64,000 nt of DNA. It comes from Citreicoccus inhibens (lineage in GTDB: Bacteria > Myxococcota > Myxococcia > Myxococcales > Myxococcaceae). Both the position numbers and the translations under genes were made by a program. Within the stretch, counting starts at the first letter, position 1. Each line of letters begins with the position of its first letter. Location: assembly GCF_019039035.1 (NCBI RefSeq), contig NZ_JAHNZT010000003.1:1-64000 (forward strand), in the 5' to 3' direction. This document shows, one piece after another, positions 10,204 through 18,421 of the stretch. The notes beneath the pieces were generated by a model. It saw only the letters and a program-made list of their open reading frames with translations. It was not told the DNA's origin and did not search any database.

Positions 10204-11034
10204 ATGAGGCAAAGGTGTCTGAGAAGGTTTTCCTGGACACCCCTCTTGTGGGTCTGGCTGTGGGCCATGCAGGCGGCCGCGGAGCCGGCGGCGGATCAGA
10301 TCAACGTGGAGCGCCGTGGCGGCGTGCTGGAGCTGTCCTGGCAGGACGCCGAGGACCGGCTGCAGGGCTCCTTCACGCCGGTCACTCCTCGGCCTGAGAC
10401 ACCGCTCCAGCTCACCTTGAGGGTGAACAGCTTCGAGGGGCCCGCCTTCGAGGGGCCCATCACCGTCACCTTCCAGCAGGAGGGCGCCCTGTCTCAGCAG
10501 ACCGTCACCCTGCAACGGGACGGCAAGAGCTGGCGCACGGAGTTCACCCCGCCGAGCACGGGGACCTGGCAGGTCGACGTGCGTTTTCGCACCACGCGGC
10601 TCAAGGTGCTGCACACGCACTTCGACGTCACGTCCAGCCCTCCTCCCAAGGAGCTTGCCTGGGCGCTGCTCGGCGCGGGCGTCGTGGCGGCGCTGGTGCT
10701 GGGCGCGCGCAGTCTCCTGAAGCGCGAGGGTGAACCGGAGCCCCGGGTGGATGAGACCCAGCGTGCTGTCGCCGTGACCCAGGTGGCGCCCACCGCGGTG
10801 CCCGAAGCGGGCAGCGTGGTGCCCACCGAGCCCCGTGACGCAAGTGCCTCCACCTCCTCCGAGGCTCCTCCCACGGGTGCATCGGACGACAAGGGGGCCA
10901 CGGTCATGGAGGAGCAGGCCGCCTCGGCGCCCACCGAGGCCGCGCCGGTGCCTGAAGGTTCCGTCCCGGCGCCCCACGAGTCCTCGGCGGGAGCGCCGGT
11001 GGAGACCTCGCCGGACCGCGGCAGCGGGCAGTAA
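10204..11034 (+). CDS. Signal-peptide protein with beta domain and one membrane helix
   Basis: A 276-residue protein of unknown function. An N-terminal signal peptide ends near AMQAAAEPAA (about residue 25). The next 120 residues look beta-rich and Ig-like (alternating TVTF, TVTL, VDVRF strands). A hydrophobic helix near residues 152-170 (LLGAGVVAALVLGA) is followed by a long Ala/Pro/Thr/Glu-rich tail. This reads as a periplasmic sensor-like domain, one anchor and a disordered tail. It is divergent from the membrane kinase, and both carry a membrane anchor plus tail, so a working link is possible but unproven. Confidence 0.65.
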   Translation: MRQRCLRRFSWTPLLWVWLWAMQAAAEPAADQINVERRGGVLELSWQDAEDRLQGSFTPVTPRPETPLQLTLRVNSFEGPAFEGPITVTFQQEGALSQQTVTLQRDGKSWRTEFTPPSTGTWQVDVRFRTTRLKVLHTHFDVTSSPPPKELAWALLGAGVVAALVLGARSLLKREGEPEPRVDETQRAVAVTQVAPTAVPEAGSVVPTEPRDASASTSSEAPPTGASDDKGATVMEEQAASAPTEAAPVPEGSVPAPHESSAGAPVETSPDRGSGQ

Positions 11035-11245
11035 CGCGCCACTTCTTACAGGGGGCCGTTACAGGCTCCCTCGCCCTCCGAGGGAAAAAACCTTCCCAGG
11101 CCGGGGCGCGCCCATTCCTCTGGGGACGGCCGAATCACGACGCGGGGCCCGTGCGCGCGTCGGCCACCACACACCGCCTCGAGGCATTCCCCCTAGGCAC
11201 CCTGGTTGCACCAGGGGCCTGCGACTGCGGCGGGAGGCGAGGGGA

Positions 11246-12406
11246 ATGGTGGGGTGGCGGTTGGCTGAACAGGAGTGGCGGGGACTTCTCGCCGCAGTCC
11301 TCCTGGGGATTCCGGCGGGAGCGGGGGCGGAGCGGGACGAGGGCGGGCCTCCGCCGGACCCCAGCGAGTCGGTCACCCAGGCCGAGCCCCCATCGCGTGC
11401 GTCGGGTGGCGCGGAGCACGCGGCGGCGCCTCGCAAGGTGAAGCCCGCGGACTCGATGGGCGAGGACCCGGCGGGTGCGGACAAGGTGGATGACGCGGCT
11501 CAAGATTCGGACGCTCCCGTCCACTCGCTGCGACTGTTTGGACGGGTCTTCGCGCAGGCGCGAGCGGATGAACGGGCGAACTACGCGCGTTCGCTCAGCA
11601 TCCCTTCCGCGCGCGTGGGCGTGGAGGCGTCCTTCCCCAACGTGGACGCGGAGCTGAGCGCTGACCTCGCCTCCAAGTCCATCCTGAAGGACGCGTTCGT
11701 GCGGCTGTCCAACGACTCGAAGCGGCTGCGCCTGTACGGCGGCCGGTTCAAGGCGCCCTTTCTTGAGCGCGAGCTGGGCTCCTCGTGGACGCTGCCGTTG
11801 CAGGGGCGCGGACTGGTGGCCGACTATCTGGTGGACACGAATGACCTGGGGGGACGTCGCCTGGGCGTGATGGGCGAGGCGCGGTGGAAGGAAGCCTGGG
11901 GCCTCAAGGTGTCCGCGGGCCTCTTCCAAGGCGCCGAGGGCGAGACGGGCGAGCGACTCAGCGAGGACGGCGCGATGCGCGTCACCCTGCACCCGCTCAA
12001 GCGCCTCACGGTGGGCGCCAGCACCTATCTCACGCAGGTCTTCGATGGCACGCGCCAGTACGCGCTCTCCACCGACGCGCAGTTCCAGGCGGGCGCGCTG
12101 CTGCTCGCCGCCGAGGGCGTCGCCGGGCAGGTCGCGATGGGGCCCTTCACCGCGCAGCTCGTCCTGGCGTCGTGGCTGGTGGGCCTGGGGCAGCAAGGCT
12201 GGGCGCTCCAACCGGTGCTCGGCGCGGAGGCGCTCCAGCTTCGCATCGACGCGGTGACGAAGACGGGCCACGCCTTGGTCGGAGGCCTCAACCTGTTGCT
12301 GGCCGACCTGTTCAAGGTCCAGCTCCAAGTGGAGCGCGCCCTGCGGCCTGGAGAACCAGCGGCCGCGCTGGAGCTGTCGCTGCAACTCGCCACCCGCTTC
12401 CAGTGA
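11246..12406 (+). CDS. Outer-membrane porin-like protein
   Basis: A 386-residue predicted outer-membrane barrel. An N-terminal hydrophobic signal (LLAAVLLGIPAGAGA) precedes an acidic, disordered stretch to about residue 95. After that, alternating hydrophobic strands predominate (LRLFGRVFAQ, SIPSARVGVEASF, KRLRLYGGRFKAPFLERELGSS and so on), and the chain ends in ATRFQ. The fragment with GRFKAPFLERE resembles phosphate-selective porin O/P-type barrels, by eye only. GGAGG lies 9 nt before the ATG. It begins a tight run of genes (14 nt to the VTC gene), which supports a role in phosphate or polyphosphate passage. Confidence 0.6.
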   Translation: MVGWRLAEQEWRGLLAAVLLGIPAGAGAERDEGGPPPDPSESVTQAEPPSRASGGAEHAAAPRKVKPADSMGEDPAGADKVDDAAQDSDAPVHSLRLFGRVFAQARADERANYARSLSIPSARVGVEASFPNVDAELSADLASKSILKDAFVRLSNDSKRLRLYGGRFKAPFLERELGSSWTLPLQGRGLVADYLVDTNDLGGRRLGVMGEARWKEAWGLKVSAGLFQGAEGETGERLSEDGAMRVTLHPLKRLTVGASTYLTQVFDGTRQYALSTDAQFQAGALLLAAEGVAGQVAMGPFTAQLVLASWLVGLGQQGWALQPVLGAEALQLRIDAVTKTGHALVGGLNLLLADLFKVQLQVERALRPGEPAAALELSLQLATRFQ

Positions 12407-12420
12407 GTCGGAGTCCGCCC

Positions 12421-13134
12421 ATGCGCTCGTTCGCCGAAGGCGATGTCACTCGGCTGCGCCGTGAGTTCAAGCTCGTGCTCGAGGAGCGCCAGGTCGCGGC
12501 GCTCCACGACCGGCTGTCCCAGGAGATGGAGGGCGTGTCGAGCCCGCCCACCCGCATCGTGTCGGTCTACTTCGACAAGCCGGGCTGTCCCCTGGCGCTG
12601 CGCGCGCTGCGCACGCCCGAGGACTGCGTCAAGGTGCGCACGAAGGAGTACGCGCCGGACCTGGGCGCCGAGGGCCACGAGCGCGTGGTGCTGGAGGTCA
12701 AACGGGAGCGCGGAGGCGTAACCCAGAAGCGGCGTCTGTGGGTGCCGCGTGCGCGGCTCGGGCAGGCGGTGCGCGGGGGCGCGCGGCTGCTGCCCCTCAT
12801 CGCGGGAGGCAGTCTGCGGCCCGTGCTGGCGGTGACGTATCAGCGCCACGTGTATCAGGTGGAGGAGACCTGGCGGGTGACGATGGACCGGGACATCGGC
12901 TTCCACGCGATCACCCCGGAGGTGGCCCTGGGCGACACGGCGCTGACCGTCGAACGACTGGGCGTGCCCGTGGCGAGGGACTCGCGCGTGGTGGTCGAGG
13001 TGAAGCACCTGGGGCGGGAGCTGCCCGGGTGGCTGGGCGCGCTTCATGTGGAGGGCGCGCCGGCCTACAGCAAGTTCGCGGAAGGCATGGCACGCGTCCA
13101 CGCCTTCACGGCGGCCGGGGCGACGGGGGGATAG
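12421..13134 (+). CDS. VTC-domain polyphosphate polymerase
   Basis: A 237-residue protein that is almost wholly one VTC domain, the tunnel fold that makes polyphosphate from ATP in yeast Vtc4. The expected basic and acidic signature is present in order: RREFK (13-17), a VYFDKP strand, KVRTKEY (71-77), LEVKRERGG (91-99), PVLAVTYQRHVY, MDRDI, VEVK (192-195) and YSKFAEG (216-222). No membrane segment, so cytosolic. GGAG sits 7 nt before the ATG. It lies between a porin-like gene and a P-loop kinase, with DUF4956 close by; VTC and DUF4956 genes are often neighbours in bacteria (established, from memory). Confidence 0.9.
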   Translation: MRSFAEGDVTRLRREFKLVLEERQVAALHDRLSQEMEGVSSPPTRIVSVYFDKPGCPLALRALRTPEDCVKVRTKEYAPDLGAEGHERVVLEVKRERGGVTQKRRLWVPRARLGQAVRGGARLLPLIAGGSLRPVLAVTYQRHVYQVEETWRVTMDRDIGFHAITPEVALGDTALTVERLGVPVARDSRVVVEVKHLGRELPGWLGALHVEGAPAYSKFAEGMARVHAFTAAGATGG

Positions 13135-13140
13135 GGCACT

Positions 13141-14847
13141 GTGTTCATCGACTTCGAAGGCATCGACGGCAGCGGCAAGACAACGCTGTCCAACCTCCTG
13201 GCCGCGCGGCTCAAGCGGCTTGGATACAAGGTGGTGCACGCGCGTGAAGGTGGCGAGCTGCAGTCATCCACCGCGCGGCGGATCCGGGAGCTGACGCGCG
13301 ACTCGCGCCTGTTGGAGATGACCTCGCGCGCCGAGTTCTTCCTCAACCTCGCGCGCGACGCGCAGCAACTGGAGGAAGTGGTGGCGCCCGCGCTGTCTCG
13401 CGGTGAGGTGTGCATCACGGACCGCTACCTGCACTCGCAGCTCGCGCTGAGCAGCGGGGGCCGGGGGCTGCCCATGGATGCCTTGCAGGGTGCCTGTGAG
13501 CTGGCGGCGCAGGGGCTATGGCCCGACCTGATCATCCTGGTGGACGTGGACCCAGAGATGGCGCGCCTGCGCAAGCGCCTGGGCAAGGTCCAGGGAGGAC
13601 GCGCGCAGGACGCCGACAGCCGCAAGGGCCTGTCCGGCGCGGGCCTGTCCGTGCGCGTGCGCGAGTCCTTCCTCGCCATGGCGCGGAAGGATCCGCACCA
13701 CTGGCTCATCTTGGAGAACAACGAGCAGCCCCTGTGGGTGTTGGAGCAGCGGCTGGTGGAGGCGGTGGTGGCGCGGCTGGAGCAGCGCGAGCTGCCCGTG
13801 CAGCGGCTGGTGCCCGCGCCTCCGGCCCCGCAGCCGGGTGCGACATCCGTGGCGGATGTGGAGTCGCGATTCTTCCTCGCGCTGGATGCGCTGGAGACTC
13901 GCGAGCCCCATCTGGCCGCCTGGATGCTGGGCCGCATCCCGGGCCTGCCCGCGCATCAACGGCGCCTCGCCCTGGCCGAGCGCTACCCCGCCCTCATCGC
14001 GGGCGGACTGCTCGGTCTGGATGACGAGGCCGCGTGGGACTTGCGGGAGGCGCTCGCGGCGACGACGCCCACGAGCGTGGCCAGCGGGCTGGAGGCGCTC
14101 TCGTCACCGCGCGCGGATGCCCTGCGCTTGAGGCTGTATGCCCAGGCCACGCCGGAGGTTCTCGCCAGCCTGACGCGCCATGACTCCCCCGAGGCCTGGG
14201 CGCTGCGCGAGCGCGGCCTGCGCGACGGACGGCTGGCTGATGTGCTCGCGGGCCTGGGAGGCGTGGACGGAGACGATGCCTGGGAGGTGCGCGAGGCGGG
14301 CATGCGGCGCGAGCTGTACGGGGCGATCGCGCTCAGCCTCGCGGGGCTGGACTCGGCGCGCGCCGAGGCACTGCGCCAGGAGCTCGTGCCTCACGACCGG
14401 TTGGCGGTGCTGCGCAGCACCACGGGATTGGACACGCCGGTGGCGAGGACCCTTCGGGCCCAACTCGAGGGCAAGGCGCTGAAGCTGGTGCTGCGCTCGG
14501 TCACGGGGCTCACCACGGACGACGCGTGGGCCTTGCGCGAGCGCGGCGCGACGCGGACGAAGGAGGCCATCGACTCGTTGGATGGCCTGGATGATCCACG
14601 CGCCTGGAGACTGCGCGCCCGCCACGCCCGACAGTGGACCTGCACGGTGGTGTCTTCGCTGCGCGGCCTGCCGCTCGGTCCCGAGGCACGCGTGTTGCTG
14701 GAGCGCGCGCTGGAGGCGCATCCGGGGCGCCTGCCGGTGCTGCGCAATGCCTATGCCGTCGTGGCCACGGCGCGCGAGGCGGCGCGCTCGGGCCGTGCTC
14801 CCCGCTCCGGGACTCAACCGAGCCCCACGGTTCAACTCGAATCCTAG
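13141..14847 (+). CDS. Thymidylate-kinase-like protein with long repeat tail
   Basis: A 568-residue protein. Residues 1-215 follow thymidylate kinase: P-loop GIDGSGKTT (7-15), REGG (36-39), the paired helices with RAEFFLNLARDAQQ, and DRYLHSQLA (94-102); a LID-like Arg/Lys/Gly-rich stretch lies near 145-165. A Pro-rich linker (220-236) leads to about nine repeats of roughly 27 residues (286-525) with a GLDxxxAWxLRE-like core, probably a helical solenoid. Ordinary Tmk is about 210 residues, so the tail is unusual. Start is GTG, 6 nt after the VTC stop. It may be a dTMP kinase, or a related nucleotide/polyphosphate kinase partnering the VTC enzyme; PPK2 kinases share this P-loop fold. Confidence 0.85.
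   Translation: MFIDFEGIDGSGKTTLSNLLAARLKRLGYKVVHAREGGELQSSTARRIRELTRDSRLLEMTSRAEFFLNLARDAQQLEEVVAPALSRGEVCITDRYLHSQLALSSGGRGLPMDALQGACELAAQGLWPDLIILVDVDPEMARLRKRLGKVQGGRAQDADSRKGLSGAGLSVRVRESFLAMARKDPHHWLILENNEQPLWVLEQRLVEAVVARLEQRELPVQRLVPAPPAPQPGATSVADVESRFFLALDALETREPHLAAWMLGRIPGLPAHQRRLALAERYPALIAGGLLGLDDEAAWDLREALAATTPTSVASGLEALSSPRADALRLRLYAQATPEVLASLTRHDSPEAWALRERGLRDGRLADVLAGLGGVDGDDAWEVREAGMRRELYGAIALSLAGLDSARAEALRQELVPHDRLAVLRSTTGLDTPVARTLRAQLEGKALKLVLRSVTGLTTDDAWALRERGATRTKEAIDSLDGLDDPRAWRLRARHARQWTCTVVSSLRGLPLGPEARVLLERALEAHPGRLPVLRNAYAVVATAREAARSGRAPRSGTQPSPTVQLES
13996..14716 (+). repeat. Degenerate coding repeats in kinase C-terminal region
   Basis: About nine diverged units of near 81 bp each encode a repeating pattern: a small-hydrophobic start (V/A-L-x-S-L), GLD, a short acidic turn, then AWxLRER or AxxLRxxL. 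Clear units begin near residues 286, 313, 340, 367, 394, 422, 449, 475 and 502 of the protein. They differ at DNA level, so this is an old protein repeat, not a recent tandem array. Confidence 0.75.
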
Positions 14848-14859
14848 GAGGCCGCCGAC

Positions 14860-15564
14860 ATGGACACCGCGTTCGCGCCCCTGATGCAAGAGGTACAGAC
14901 CGAGCTGCACGCCTTCTCCCTGGCGTCCATGGTTCCGCGCATGCTGGCCGCGGTGCTCATCGGGACACTGCTCTCGCTGAGGCCCTGGCGGCCCCTGCTG
15001 GGCCATCCCCTGCCCCGCGCGGAGATGGTGCAGGCCCAGGTGCTGCTGTGCGCCGCGGCGGCGGTCATCACGACCGTCATCGGCAACAGCGTGGCCAAGG
15101 CCTTCGGGCTCGTGGGATTGGGCGGCTTCGTGCGCTTCCGCTCGGGGCTGAAGGACCCTCGTGACGCCGCCATCCTCTTCCTGGTGATCGGCTTCGGCAT
15201 GGCGTGTGGACACGGGAACCTCGTGCTAGCGGCCATGGGCACGGCGTTCACCACCGTGCTGCTGTTCGTCCTCGACCTCTTCAATCGGCCCGCGAAGACG
15301 GCGGCCCGGCAGCGGCTGCTGCTCAGCGCCCAATCCGATGACCTCGTCGGAGCGGAGGCCGCGCTGCGCAAGGCCCTCGGAGACCGAAATGTGCTGGTGA
15401 AGAGCTGCGCGTTGGACTTCGACGGCCGCCGGCTGGAGCTGGAGGTCGAGGAGTCCGAGCCGGGCATGCTGGCCGCGGCCATGGGCCGCACGGTGGGCCC
15501 GCCCCTGCGGGGGCTGCGGTGGACCGCGATGGCGCCCCGGAGCACGAAGGAGGACTCCGCATAA
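14860..15564 (+). CDS. DUF4956 family membrane protein
   Basis: A 234-residue inner-membrane protein. Four hydrophobic segments lie at about 25-40, 57-77, 103-118 and 119-141, and a soluble C-terminal domain at 145-234. The conserved block GGFVRFRSGLKDPRDAAILFL, with its Arg-rich loop before a membrane helix, is typical of DUF4956. An excellent GGAGG site lies just before the ATG, 12 nt after the kinase stop. DUF4956 proteins often neighbour VTC-domain genes; a role as the membrane partner or channel for polyphosphate is an inference, not established. Confidence 0.85.
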   Translation: MDTAFAPLMQEVQTELHAFSLASMVPRMLAAVLIGTLLSLRPWRPLLGHPLPRAEMVQAQVLLCAAAAVITTVIGNSVAKAFGLVGLGGFVRFRSGLKDPRDAAILFLVIGFGMACGHGNLVLAAMGTAFTTVLLFVLDLFNRPAKTAARQRLLLSAQSDDLVGAEAALRKALGDRNVLVKSCALDFDGRRLELEVEESEPGMLAAAMGRTVGPPLRGLRWTAMAPRSTKEDSA

Positions 15565-15653
15565 AGCCCGGATGGACTGGACGGCCCGGACCGAGGAACG
15601 AAGCGCCTGTGACGTGACGGCGCCCTAGCGACACGCTCGCGCGGGGGGATGGC

Positions 15654-16979
15654 ATGGCGCACATGCGCATCGGGTGGCTCCTCGCGCTGCTGCCCTGGCT
15701 CGTGAGGGCCCAGGCCGCACCTGTGCCCTCGCTGATCCGCGAGCCGTACCTCCAGAAAGTGGAGCCGACCCAGGCCCTCGTGGCCTTCCGCCTGTCCACC
15801 GACTGCGTGGCCCAGGTGGACTATGGCGTGGGTGATGAGCACCGGCTCGCCACGTCGCGAGACTCGGGGCGCATCCACGCGGTCTCGCTCACGGGCTTGG
15901 CTCCAGGGACTTCGTACCGCTACGCCATCCGCGCCTGCGGGCTCCAGTCCGCCGACCATGCGCTGCGCACCGCCCCGGCCCCCGGCTCGCGCTCCGCGCA
16001 TTTCGTGGCAGTGGGAGACCTCGGCACGGGCGGCGGAGACCAACGGGCCATCGCCGAGCGCATGCGCACGCGCCAGCCGGAGCTGTTCCTCGCGCTGGGA
16101 GACCTCGCCTACGCCTCCGGCACCGAGGCGGAGTTCCAGGCGCACTTCTTCCAGCCGCTGGCCCCCCTGCTCTCCGAGGTCCCCCTCTTCACCGCGCCCG
16201 GCAACCACGAGTACGTGACGAACGAGGCACAGCCGTACCTCGACAACCTGTACCTGCCCAGTGGCAACCCGCAGGGCACCGAGCGCTACTACGCGTTCGA
16301 CTGGGGACCCGTGCACTTCGTCGCGCTCGATTCCAACTGCGCGCTGGGGATGGCCTCACCCGCGCACTGCACCGCCGCCGCGCAGCGGGCCTGGGCCGAG
16401 ACGGACCTGACCGCGTCGCGGCTCCCCTGGAAGGTGGTCTTCTTCCACCACCCACCGTGGTCCAGCGGGACGCACGGCTCGCAGGTCACCGTGCGTCGCC
16501 AGTTCGGGCCCATCTTCGAGCGCGCGGGCGTGGACCTCGTGCTCTCCGGGCATGACCACGACTACGAACGCACCCGCCCCATGCGCGGCGACGTCGAGGC
16601 CCGCCCGGGCGAGCGCGGCATCCCCTACCTCGTGGTGGGGGGAGGCGGCGCAGACCTGCGTCGCTTCCCCGGTGCCACCCCCACCTGGAGCGCCCGACGG
16701 GACGACACGCGCCATGCCTTCCTGGAGGTCGTGGTCCAAGAGGGTACCCTCACCGCCTGGGCGATGACGCCCACGGGCGAGATGTTGGACGGCTTCGTCC
16801 TGAACAAGCCCCTGCCCCCTGGCCCGGCCCCTTCGGGCCCGACGCGCGGTGTCCTCCCGAGCCACCCCATCCCCCGTCGGGGTTTCCAGGAAACCCAGGG
16901 TCCCGAGGGGCTTCCCGCACATCAGCGCTTGTCAACCCGGCCCGGGGAGTGCGATGGCCCCAGTCCTCCATGGCCATGA
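15654..16979 (+). CDS. Secreted metallophosphoesterase, purple acid phosphatase-like
   Basis: A 441-residue exported phosphatase. A short signal peptide (about 1-22) is followed by an FN3-like domain (about 27-108) and a calcineurin-type metallophosphoesterase domain with all metal motifs: GDLG (121-124), LGDLAY (148-153), GNHE (about 184), HHPPW and GHDHDYER. This matches purple-acid-phosphatase-like enzymes, which remove phosphate from esters or anhydrides outside the cytosol. The catalytic domain ends near residue 385; the last 55 residues are Pro/Gly-rich. A hairpin (16821-16826 with 16834-16839) lies inside that tail. The stop overlaps the next start (ATGA). Confidence 0.85.
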   Translation: MAHMRIGWLLALLPWLVRAQAAPVPSLIREPYLQKVEPTQALVAFRLSTDCVAQVDYGVGDEHRLATSRDSGRIHAVSLTGLAPGTSYRYAIRACGLQSADHALRTAPAPGSRSAHFVAVGDLGTGGGDQRAIAERMRTRQPELFLALGDLAYASGTEAEFQAHFFQPLAPLLSEVPLFTAPGNHEYVTNEAQPYLDNLYLPSGNPQGTERYYAFDWGPVHFVALDSNCALGMASPAHCTAAAQRAWAETDLTASRLPWKVVFFHHPPWSSGTHGSQVTVRRQFGPIFERAGVDLVLSGHDHDYERTRPMRGDVEARPGERGIPYLVVGGGGADLRRFPGATPTWSARRDDTRHAFLEVVVQEGTLTAWAMTPTGEMLDGFVLNKPLPPGPAPSGPTRGVLPSHPIPRRGFQETQGPEGLPAHQRLSTRPGECDGPSPPWP

Positions 16980-18421
16980 AACGAAAGTCCGGGCCGTCCC
17001 GCCGGCATGCCTCCACCTCCTCGCCCTCCTCGTCGCGCGCGCCCGGCGAGCGCCCGGGCAAGCGGCCCAAGCCGACCGCCGCCGAGAGCGCCACCCGGCC
17101 CATGCGCGAGGACCTGGTGCTCCAGGCGAGCCTGGAGGCCTACGGACTCGTGCGCCACGAGGGCCGCCTGTCCGACCGGGCCCTGGACTTCGTGCTGCGC
17201 CGCAAGACGAACCTCTACTCGTCCGAGCGCCGCGCCGTGGCCGAGCGGGTCTACGCGCTCCTGCGCCGCCAGCGCACGGTGGACTTCCTCCTCGGCCGCG
17301 CCCACAAGCGCTTCGACTCGCTGGACACCACGCGCCAGGACGTGATGCGGCTGGCGGCCTCGCGCGTGCTGTACGGGGAGTCCCCGTCGATGGTGGCGCG
17401 CACCAGCGCGCTGAGCAGCTCGGAGGCCGCCGTGCTGGACGCGCTGCCGAGCGCCGCCGCCGCGCTGGAGGCCCTGCCCGAGAACGAGCGCTTCGCCATC
17501 GCCGCGTCGCTGCCGGACTTCCTCGCCGAGCGCTTCCGCGACGTCTTCGGCGCCGAGGCCGCCCGCGCCGCCGAGGCGATGAACGAGCGCGCCCCGCTGA
17601 CCGCGCGGGCCAATCCCATCCAGGGTGACCGCACCGCGCTCCAGGCCCGACTCCAGGCCGAGGAGGTGCAGTCCAAGCCCACGCCGCTGTCCCCGTTCGG
17701 GCTCGTGTTGGAGACGCGGCTCAACATCTTCTCCCTGGAGGCCTTCCGCGAGGGCGGGCTGGAGATCCAGGACGAGGGCAGCCAGCTGTTGGGCATGCTC
17801 GTCGACGCGCCGCCCACCCGCGTGGTGGACGCGTGCGCGGGCGCGGGCGGCAAGACCCTCCAGCTCGCGGCGCAGATGAAGAACCGCGGCGACCTGCACG
17901 CGTTGGACATCGACGAGCGCCGGATGGACGAGCTCAGGAAGCGCGCGCGGCGCGCCGGTGTGCACAACGTGCGCACGCTGCTCATCCCGCCAGAGGGTCC
18001 CGAGGTGGACACGGCCCTCGAGCCCCTGAAGGAGAAGGCGGACCGCGTGCTGGTGGACGCGCCGTGCAGCGGCACGGGCACCTTCCGCCGCAAGCCAGAC
18101 GCGCGCTATCGCCTGACGCCGGATGATCTGGCCATGCACGTGACGCGGCAGAAGACGCTGCTCGCGCGCTTCGCCCAGCTCGTGAAGCCCGGCGGCCGGC
18201 TCATCTACGGCACGTGCAGCGTGCTGCGCGAGGAGAACGAGCAGGTCATCGAGCACTTCCTCGCCCACCATCCAGAGTTCACGGTGCGCCCGGTGTCCGA
18301 GGTGCTCGGCGCCGAGCTGGGCGCGAAGCTCGGCCCCGGGCCGTATCTGCGACTCGCACCGCACACCCATGGCACGGACGGCTTCTTCGGCGCCGTGCTC
18401 GTCCGGGCCAAGCGCCCGTAG
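16976..18421 (+). CDS. RsmB-like RNA (cytosine-5) methyltransferase
   Basis: A 481-residue SAM-dependent RNA m5C methyltransferase of the RsmB/NSUN family. An Arg/Ser/Pro-rich N-terminal stretch (about 1-40) is followed by a NusB-like helical domain (about 50-190) and the catalytic domain: SAM loop DACAGAGGKTLQLA, the DIDERRMDEL strand, active-site PCSGTG and second Cys in YGTCSVLREENE. RsmB itself modifies 16S rRNA C967; the exact target here is not certain. The ATG at the ATGA overlap with the upstream phosphatase was chosen; two ATGs lie just upstream in frame. Confidence 0.9.
   Translation: MKRKSGPSRRHASTSSPSSSRAPGERPGKRPKPTAAESATRPMREDLVLQASLEAYGLVRHEGRLSDRALDFVLRRKTNLYSSERRAVAERVYALLRRQRTVDFLLGRAHKRFDSLDTTRQDVMRLAASRVLYGESPSMVARTSALSSSEAAVLDALPSAAAALEALPENERFAIAASLPDFLAERFRDVFGAEAARAAEAMNERAPLTARANPIQGDRTALQARLQAEEVQSKPTPLSPFGLVLETRLNIFSLEAFREGGLEIQDEGSQLLGMLVDAPPTRVVDACAGAGGKTLQLAAQMKNRGDLHALDIDERRMDELRKRARRAGVHNVRTLLIPPEGPEVDTALEPLKEKADRVLVDAPCSGTGTFRRKPDARYRLTPDDLAMHVTRQKTLLARFAQLVKPGGRLIYGTCSVLREENEQVIEHFLAHHPEFTVRPVSEVLGAELGAKLGPGPYLRLAPHTHGTDGFFGAVLVRAKRP

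Follow-up and report, generated by a model that had tools for sequence, protein, structure and literature searches.

In the yeast VTC complex, membrane helices pass the polyphosphate chain through the membrane. A second related system is found in Gram-positive bacteria, where cotH, a poly-phosphate polymerase gene, DUF4956 and DUF4832 are described as accessory genes of the streptococcal and clostridial pel loci, with a variant in bifidobacteria (PMC7112168); the polymerase is, on our own reading, of the VTC type. Here we analyse a locus of Citreicoccus inhibens (Myxococcales; Myxococcaceae) that lies in a stretch of 64,000 nucleotides (contig NZ_JAHNZT010000003.1, positions 1 to 64,000), which as a whole is called the window below. 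Like the Gram-positive set (PMC7112168), it has a VTC-type polymerase together with DUF4956, and a paralogous cluster in relatives adds CotH. Unlike that set, it has a kinase of the thymidylate kinase (Tmk) fold between VTC and DUF4956, a porin gene upstream, and no CotH among its five genes (Pfam). In the open-access literature we found no functional study of the VTC/DUF4956 gene pairs, which several groups of bacteria possess, and no report of a Tmk-fold kinase at such a locus, subscription papers and preprints being outside the search. The features are:

11246-12406, plus strand: porin-like outer-membrane beta-barrel protein (386 residues, N-terminus signal-peptide-like by eye)
12421-13134, plus strand: protein with a VTC (polyphosphate polymerase-type) domain (237 residues, no other domain detected)
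13141-14847, plus strand: kinase with a GTG start (568 residues; Tmk-fold P-loop domain at about 1-216, 27-residue helical repeats at about 238-530)
14860-15564, plus strand: DUF4956 membrane protein (234 residues; predicted helical N-terminal part and ACT-like C-terminal domain)
15565-15653, plus strand: spacer of 89 nucleotides, lacking the lipoprotein gene (about 260 residues) that relatives have at this place
15654-16979, plus strand: secreted calcineurin-like or purple-acid-phosphatase-like metallophosphatase (441 residues, C-terminus shorter than in relatives; loosely associated)

The initial annotation had described five genes on one strand with gaps of 6-14 nucleotides and then 89, which the coordinates bear out (14, 6, 12 and 89 nucleotides). 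Four of its domain identities were likewise confirmed by Pfam scores above the cut-offs: 71.5 against 23 bits for VTC (PF09359), 91.8 against 27 for Thymidylate_kin, 42.0 against 30.6 for DUF4956 (PF16316) and 64.6 against 21.5 for Metallophos (PF00149). VTC and DUF4956 thus lie within one gene run, as in the widespread CotH/VTC/DUF4956 module. Our favoured explanation, to which we give a probability of about 0.5, is that the genes at 11246-15564 are a Myxococcales-specific variant of this module, which would make and move polyphosphate.

The porin-VTC-kinase-DUF4956 arrangement is, judging from the genomes compared, a conserved operon of soil-dwelling myxobacteria. Window genes were mapped onto 26 kinase-encoding loci of relatives, taken as 20 and then 6, a seventh stretch of the second batch being left out because it encodes a different gene. 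Of the first 20, 15 Myxococcaceae loci (L035-L049) show the arrangement, with a contig end truncating the porin in L047 and L049. Three loci of the Anaeromyxobacter family (L051-L053) show it too, and in L050 a contig end falls within the kinase. It is also found in L163, from one further family. The four genes thus keep their arrangement in the kinase-bearing Myxococcaceae and in two other families within the order, where the flanking genes are different: the methyltransferase and M61 peptidase genes that lie 3' of the operon in Myxococcaceae were not found at L051-L053, nor were the Myxococcaceae flanking genes found at L163. With start codons picked by script, the gaps are at most 20 nucleotides in the 16 measured loci where all four genes are complete, apart from 13-nucleotide overlaps of kinase and DUF4956 in L051-L053. 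The ratio of nonsynonymous to synonymous substitution rates (dN/dS) against the sister species is 0.07-0.18 for the four genes. Since the gene order and the short gaps recur in relatives and the dN/dS values are this low, the arrangement is more than chance.

A scan of the genome contigs of 84,980 species with two peptide patterns from the kinase tail, which may miss distant members, gave 96 stretches, 31 of which encode relatives. These 31 loci overlap with the Myxococcota genome set used below and are not independent of it. The four-gene order is present in 29 of them (in L108 and L109 the porin is truncated at a contig end), and in the other two, L092 and L107, the kinase itself is cut. The neighbourhood is therefore kept among relatives, and the claim that these genes belong together passes this check. 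All 31 are titled as myxobacteria, Myxococcus xanthus (L103) and Anaeromyxobacter soli (L111) included, except for one record titled Comamonas sp. KCTC 72670 (BNCN01000003.1, L096). This record shows full myxobacterial synteny at the locus and is probably mislabelled.

Within Myxococcota, the kinase tail is found in 75 of 195 genomes, all 75 in the taxonomic order of the window, and VTC in 94 of 193, the two occurring together in 70. Five genomes appeared to have the kinase only; on direct reading, three of these do have the operon VTC (G045, G085 and G144, at L053, L162 and L161), the locus of G114 abuts the end of its contig, and no VTC is seen in the stretch of G037 that was read. VTC without the kinase occurs in 24 genomes, five of them from the window's family.

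We now turn to the individual proteins. The VTC domain is complete, the match covering profile positions 2-235 of 235. A single-sequence search of the PDB with this protein gave a chance match only, and the family profile was needed to reach Vtc4: a profile of 20 VTC relatives ranked yeast Vtc4 (E 6.9e-8) above Vtc2 and Vtc3, with an alignment spanning profile positions 37-231. The VTC alignment takes in one paralogous copy only (L055). In a mapping counted by hand, with an assumed offset of 185, Vtc4 R264, R266, K281, K294, R361, R373, E426, K428 and K458 align with R73, K75, K94, K103, R142, R152, E193, K195 and K218 of the window protein, while the K200 region of Vtc4 lies outside the alignment. 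Nine of the ten aligned Vtc4 positions, all of which we take to be catalytic, keep a like residue. R73, K94, K103, R142, R152, E193, K195 and K218 are invariant in all 20 relatives and K75 is nearly so. The site thus looks competent, and the protein is a probable polyphosphate polymerase.

The DUF4956 protein is likely the membrane partner of VTC, going by its predicted structure. Its N-terminal part contains a conserved stretch, AFGLVGLGxFxRFRSGxKDxRDAA, and its predicted model is helical with an ACT-like C-terminal domain. The fold search with this model gave weak ACT-like matches, the C-terminal domain of MgtC being ranked 43rd (E 0.06), and the Pfam MgtC model matches the protein below its cut-off. 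Profile searches of the PDB with the DUF4956 and porin families gave nothing credible. As to the porin-like barrel proposed at first, it is the family rather than the window protein that provides the support: at E≤1, Porin_O_P (PF07396) matches 12 of the 21 family members, the best of them at 2.4e-9, while the window porin is among the nine unmatched and has no Pfam match of its own. A distant homologue scores above the PF07396 cut-off (25.3 against 20.9), and the alignment, made without L057, L059 and the loci truncated at contig ends, L047 and L049, has invariant GxFKxP and LPxxxRG stretches. In sequence, the family resembles the phosphate-selective porin O/P type.

The kinase is the most distinctive component. 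Its predicted model has a mean predicted local distance difference test score (pLDDT) of 90.7, and residues 1-216 adopt in this model the Tmk fold, with the best match to 4edh (Z 27.3, root-mean-square deviation 1.9, 205 aligned residues). The fold matches listed span residues 1-217 only and say nothing on the tail. For the latter, a 27-residue period is detected (score 0.11 at lag 27, the best of 300 shuffles reaching -0.50), and the model shows approximately nine 27-residue helical repeats forming a solenoid; no repeat family, HEAT-type included, matched any of 19 kinase tails in Pfam at E≤10. At the level of families, the NCBIfam dTMP kinase equivalog TIGR00041 is exceeded (102.3 against a cut-off of 83.25 bits).

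Comparison of 26 kinases of this family, the paralogous type included (L050, which is cut, was left out of the alignment), with eight ordinary Tmks of the relatives shows where the two groups differ. The P-loop Lys is present in 26/26 of the former and 5/8 of the latter, and the DR motif in all 26. The Gln of AYQ and the Tyr preceding it are each found in 8/8 ordinary Tmks and in 0/26 of these kinases, and the Arg of ADRxEH, present in 8/8, is Asp or Glu in 26/26. This Gln and this Arg are presumably dTMP-recognition residues. The loss of this Arg might be offset by an invariant Arg at the preceding position. In the Phe column, the ordinary Tmks have Phe (7/8) or Tyr (1/8), and the 26 kinases Asn (19), Tyr (6, of the paralogous type) or Leu (1). 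The window kinase thus shares fold, P-loop and DR motif with bacterial Tmks, and differs from them in lacking the Gln and the Arg, in carrying the repeat tail and in belonging to a VTC operon.

The dN/dS against the sister species is 0.038 for the kinase part and 0.101 for the tail, and a further Tmk-family gene scoring at least 81 bits is present in 9/9 kinase-bearing genomes among 14 searched. Because the recognition residues are lost in all 26, the kinase part is this constrained and further Tmks are available, the protein is kept as a kinase by selection, most likely one that acts on a substrate other than dTMP, and it probably serves phosphate storage or export, not DNA synthesis. The kinase is neither an ordinary dTMP kinase nor the only one, and a housekeeping role as dTMP kinase is ruled out by the other Tmk genes together with the changed residues. 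PPK2 enzymes resemble Tmk, and they are P-loop kinases too. The PPK2-like relation that had been proposed for the window kinase is, however, without sequence support, since no PPK2 family matches it at E≤0.1 in Pfam or NCBIfam.

The lid of the window kinase (residues 138-175) contains 10 Lys/Arg and 4 Asp/Glu, a count made for this protein only. One could speculate, as something of a long shot, that the kinase represents an independent line of phosphate-polymer kinases, i.e. a Tmk without base pocket and with a basic lid that would start, end or draw on the chains made by VTC, with the solenoid as docking arm. If so, the locus would synthesise and export polyphosphate with the help of a kinase dedicated to this task, apart from PPK1 and PPK2.

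The best Tmk of the window genome (L001, C28:126109-126675) has the P-loop GAGTTTQ, with Thr for the usual Lys, and keeps the examined dTMP-recognition residues. The Thr P-loop occurs in 3/8 of the relatives' Tmks examined (also L029 and L030). Since G007 and G010, in which the operon-kinase tail was not found, have no other Tmk-family match above 40 bits, a Tmk with this P-loop is presumably functional.

It had also been suggested that the kinase holds the kinase place of CotH, which turned out to be too simple. Second kinase matches of about 40% identity in six relatives led to a paralogous cluster that has the order CotH-VTC-porin-kinase-DUF4956 in L055, L056, L058, L059 and L060. Six more paralogous loci (L169-L174) have the same five components, and a PhoU_div-type protein follows in two of the 12 clusters (L055, L171). 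Since CotH and kinase are present together, the kinase is not a simple CotH substitute and strict replacement is ruled out. Moreover, in L151 and L153, from distant Myxococcota, large CotH-domain proteins occupy the gap between porin and VTC, not that between VTC and DUF4956, and the CotH gene seen in L147 lies ahead of the porin. These last loci belong to a set of 23 VTC loci from kinase-less Myxococcota (L143-L160, L164-L168), for which the counts are lower bounds because contig ends truncate several of them and the profiles were self-built. DUF4956 adjoins VTC in 17 of the 23 and lies within about 3 kb in two (L167, L168); it was not found at L156, L164, L165 and L166, and in L165 the profile missed VTC too. 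The porin family occurs in 5/23 and the kinase in 0/23. The kinase thus looks like a Myxococcales addition to an older porin-CotH-VTC-DUF4956 locus, and the window-type cluster may later have lost CotH. The window genome has four CotH matches (contigs C35, C46, C40 and C43), all away from the contig that carries its single VTC match.

On the favoured explanation, VTC would polymerise phosphate from ATP in the cytosol beside DUF4956, which would anchor it and pass the chain across the inner membrane, by analogy with the helices of the yeast complex. The porin may let phosphate or short chains through the outer membrane. The kinase, docked via its solenoid, would phosphorylate a non-thymidine acceptor needed for this route; polyphosphate itself, the primer of a chain, a different nucleotide and a partner protein are all candidates. 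Optional surface parts, which may recover phosphate, would be the relatives' lipoprotein and the secreted phosphatase. The polyphosphate chemistry, the direction of transport and the substrate of the kinase are all inferred here. The phosphate-polymer pathway proposed in the initial annotation is thus partly supported, as regards the conserved operon, the VTC, the likely membrane partner, the phosphate-type porin family and the orphan kinase, but not as regards the phosphatase, the place of CotH and PPK2. In this operon, VTC is associated with a porin of the phosphate type and with a kinase whose pocket is changed, which makes the substrate of the kinase a concrete question that can be tested. 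Should the operon make polyphosphate, this would be a second, membrane-coupled route beside PPK1. The operon is found in genera including Myxococcus (M. xanthus, L103), and gene removals are routine in M. xanthus.

It is important to point out that a number of observations weigh against this explanation. A PP_kinase (PPK1-type) gene is present elsewhere in the window genome, so polyphosphate as such does not require VTC. Compared with yeast Vtc4 (PDB 3g3q, 8i6v), with which it shares the VTC domain and most site residues, the window protein has no SPX domain (Pfam at E≤0.1 matched only VTC in the 237 residues) and no obvious membrane part, no fused helices being seen, such that DUF4956 would be the membrane partner; in addition, Vtc4 K455 is not conserved and aligns with a non-basic residue. 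Confidence in the DUF4956 model is modest (pLDDT 73), this model has no PDB fold match at E≤0.001, and the Anaeromyxobacter proteins (L051-L053) lack the ACT-like domain. In L054 (G037), the kinase adjoins the methyltransferase gene without porin, VTC or DUF4956 in the stretch read, and in L057 (G015:C7) CotH directly adjoins the kinase and DUF4956, neither VTC nor porin having been found there; one of the two VTC matches of G015 is on another contig, C8. Among the 23 kinase-less loci, DUF4956 is not beside VTC in six, and 18, some of them cut by contig ends, yielded no member of the porin family. A Pho-box-like site upstream of the porin beats all 200 shuffles in only two of 17 upstream regions (L036, L043), the window not included, the pattern being the E. 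coli consensus. Finally, the related Gram-positive set sits with Pel exopolysaccharide genes (PMC7112168), so the product could serve a surface polymer.

The last point leads to an alternative in which the locus builds or modifies a cell-surface polymer, either a polysaccharide or a surface protein, decorated with phosphate, with VTC, DUF4956, CotH and kinase as the phosphorylation machinery and polyphosphate at most as an intermediate. The polymerase, DUF4956 and CotH being accessory to pel operons of Streptococci, Clostridia and Bifidobacteria (PMC7112168) argues for it, as does CotH in the paralogous clusters and in the distant Myxococcota loci, and the lipoprotein and porin neighbours would be surface parts. 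The recurring companions, however, are a phosphate-type porin, a phosphatase and, in two of the 12 paralogous clusters, PhoU_div, and no pel or glycosyltransferase family was found among the Pfam-scanned proteins, no search having been aimed at pel genes. We consider this alternative rather unlikely.

The metallophosphatase, which had been counted as a core part of the pathway, is instead a loose recurrent neighbour. It adjoins DUF4956 in the window only because the intervening lipoprotein-like gene is absent there; one copy of that gene is weakly DUF3108-like, below the cut-off. The protein has 441 residues compared with 476-562 in complete Myxococcaceae copies, and its tail seems to read into the spacer of the relatives, which fits a truncation. 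In the sister species (G001), the lipoprotein gene is present and the phosphatase is a 118-residue remnant matching the 3' end of the window gene. The phosphatase was downgraded from a core part on account of this truncation, the remnant and the lipoprotein gene in between in relatives. A phosphatase relative is nearby on the opposite strand in L162 and in L051-L053 (35-37% identity in the latter), and none was found at L110. The L037 phosphatase has a PKD domain and, by eye, a C-terminal sorting-like tail, and the window protein has no PKD domain.

A secreted phosphatase near the operon in many relatives would also fit a module for phosphate uptake and sensing, in which porin and phosphatase gather phosphate, VTC binds polyphosphate without making it, and the kinase is a nucleotide sensor. 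The Porin_O_P family and the PhoU_div proteins of the two paralogous clusters are consistent with such a role. A binding-only domain would not be expected to conserve the site residues as VTC does, there is no consistent Pho-box-like upstream site, and none of the five genes encodes an inner-membrane phosphate transporter (Pfam), all of which makes this option distinctly unlikely. Very improbable, finally, is that the kinase is merely another dTMP kinase which has drifted a little and lies in the operon by chance, as could be argued from its TIGR00041 score, its fold, the neighbouring invariant Arg and the Tyr shared by six of the 26 kinases with one ordinary Tmk, since the Gln and Arg kept in 8/8 ordinary Tmks occur in 0/26 here, the kinase domain is under strong purifying selection and every kinase-bearing genome searched has a further Tmk-family gene.

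As to the surroundings of the polyphosphate candidate operon, no sigma-70-type promoters or terminators were found in 10900-17100, a scan that is uninformative for a GC-rich genome. The stop of the phosphatase gene overlaps the start of the next gene (16970-16979) by 4 or 10 nucleotides, depending on which of two in-frame ATGs is chosen; this next gene encodes an RsmB-type methyltransferase, named by eye. Upstream, a gene at 10207-11034 on the same strand ends 211 nucleotides before the porin. Its protein has, by eye, a signal-like start and a membrane-like segment, its Pfam matches are weak only, and the gene lies beside the operon in many Myxococcaceae.

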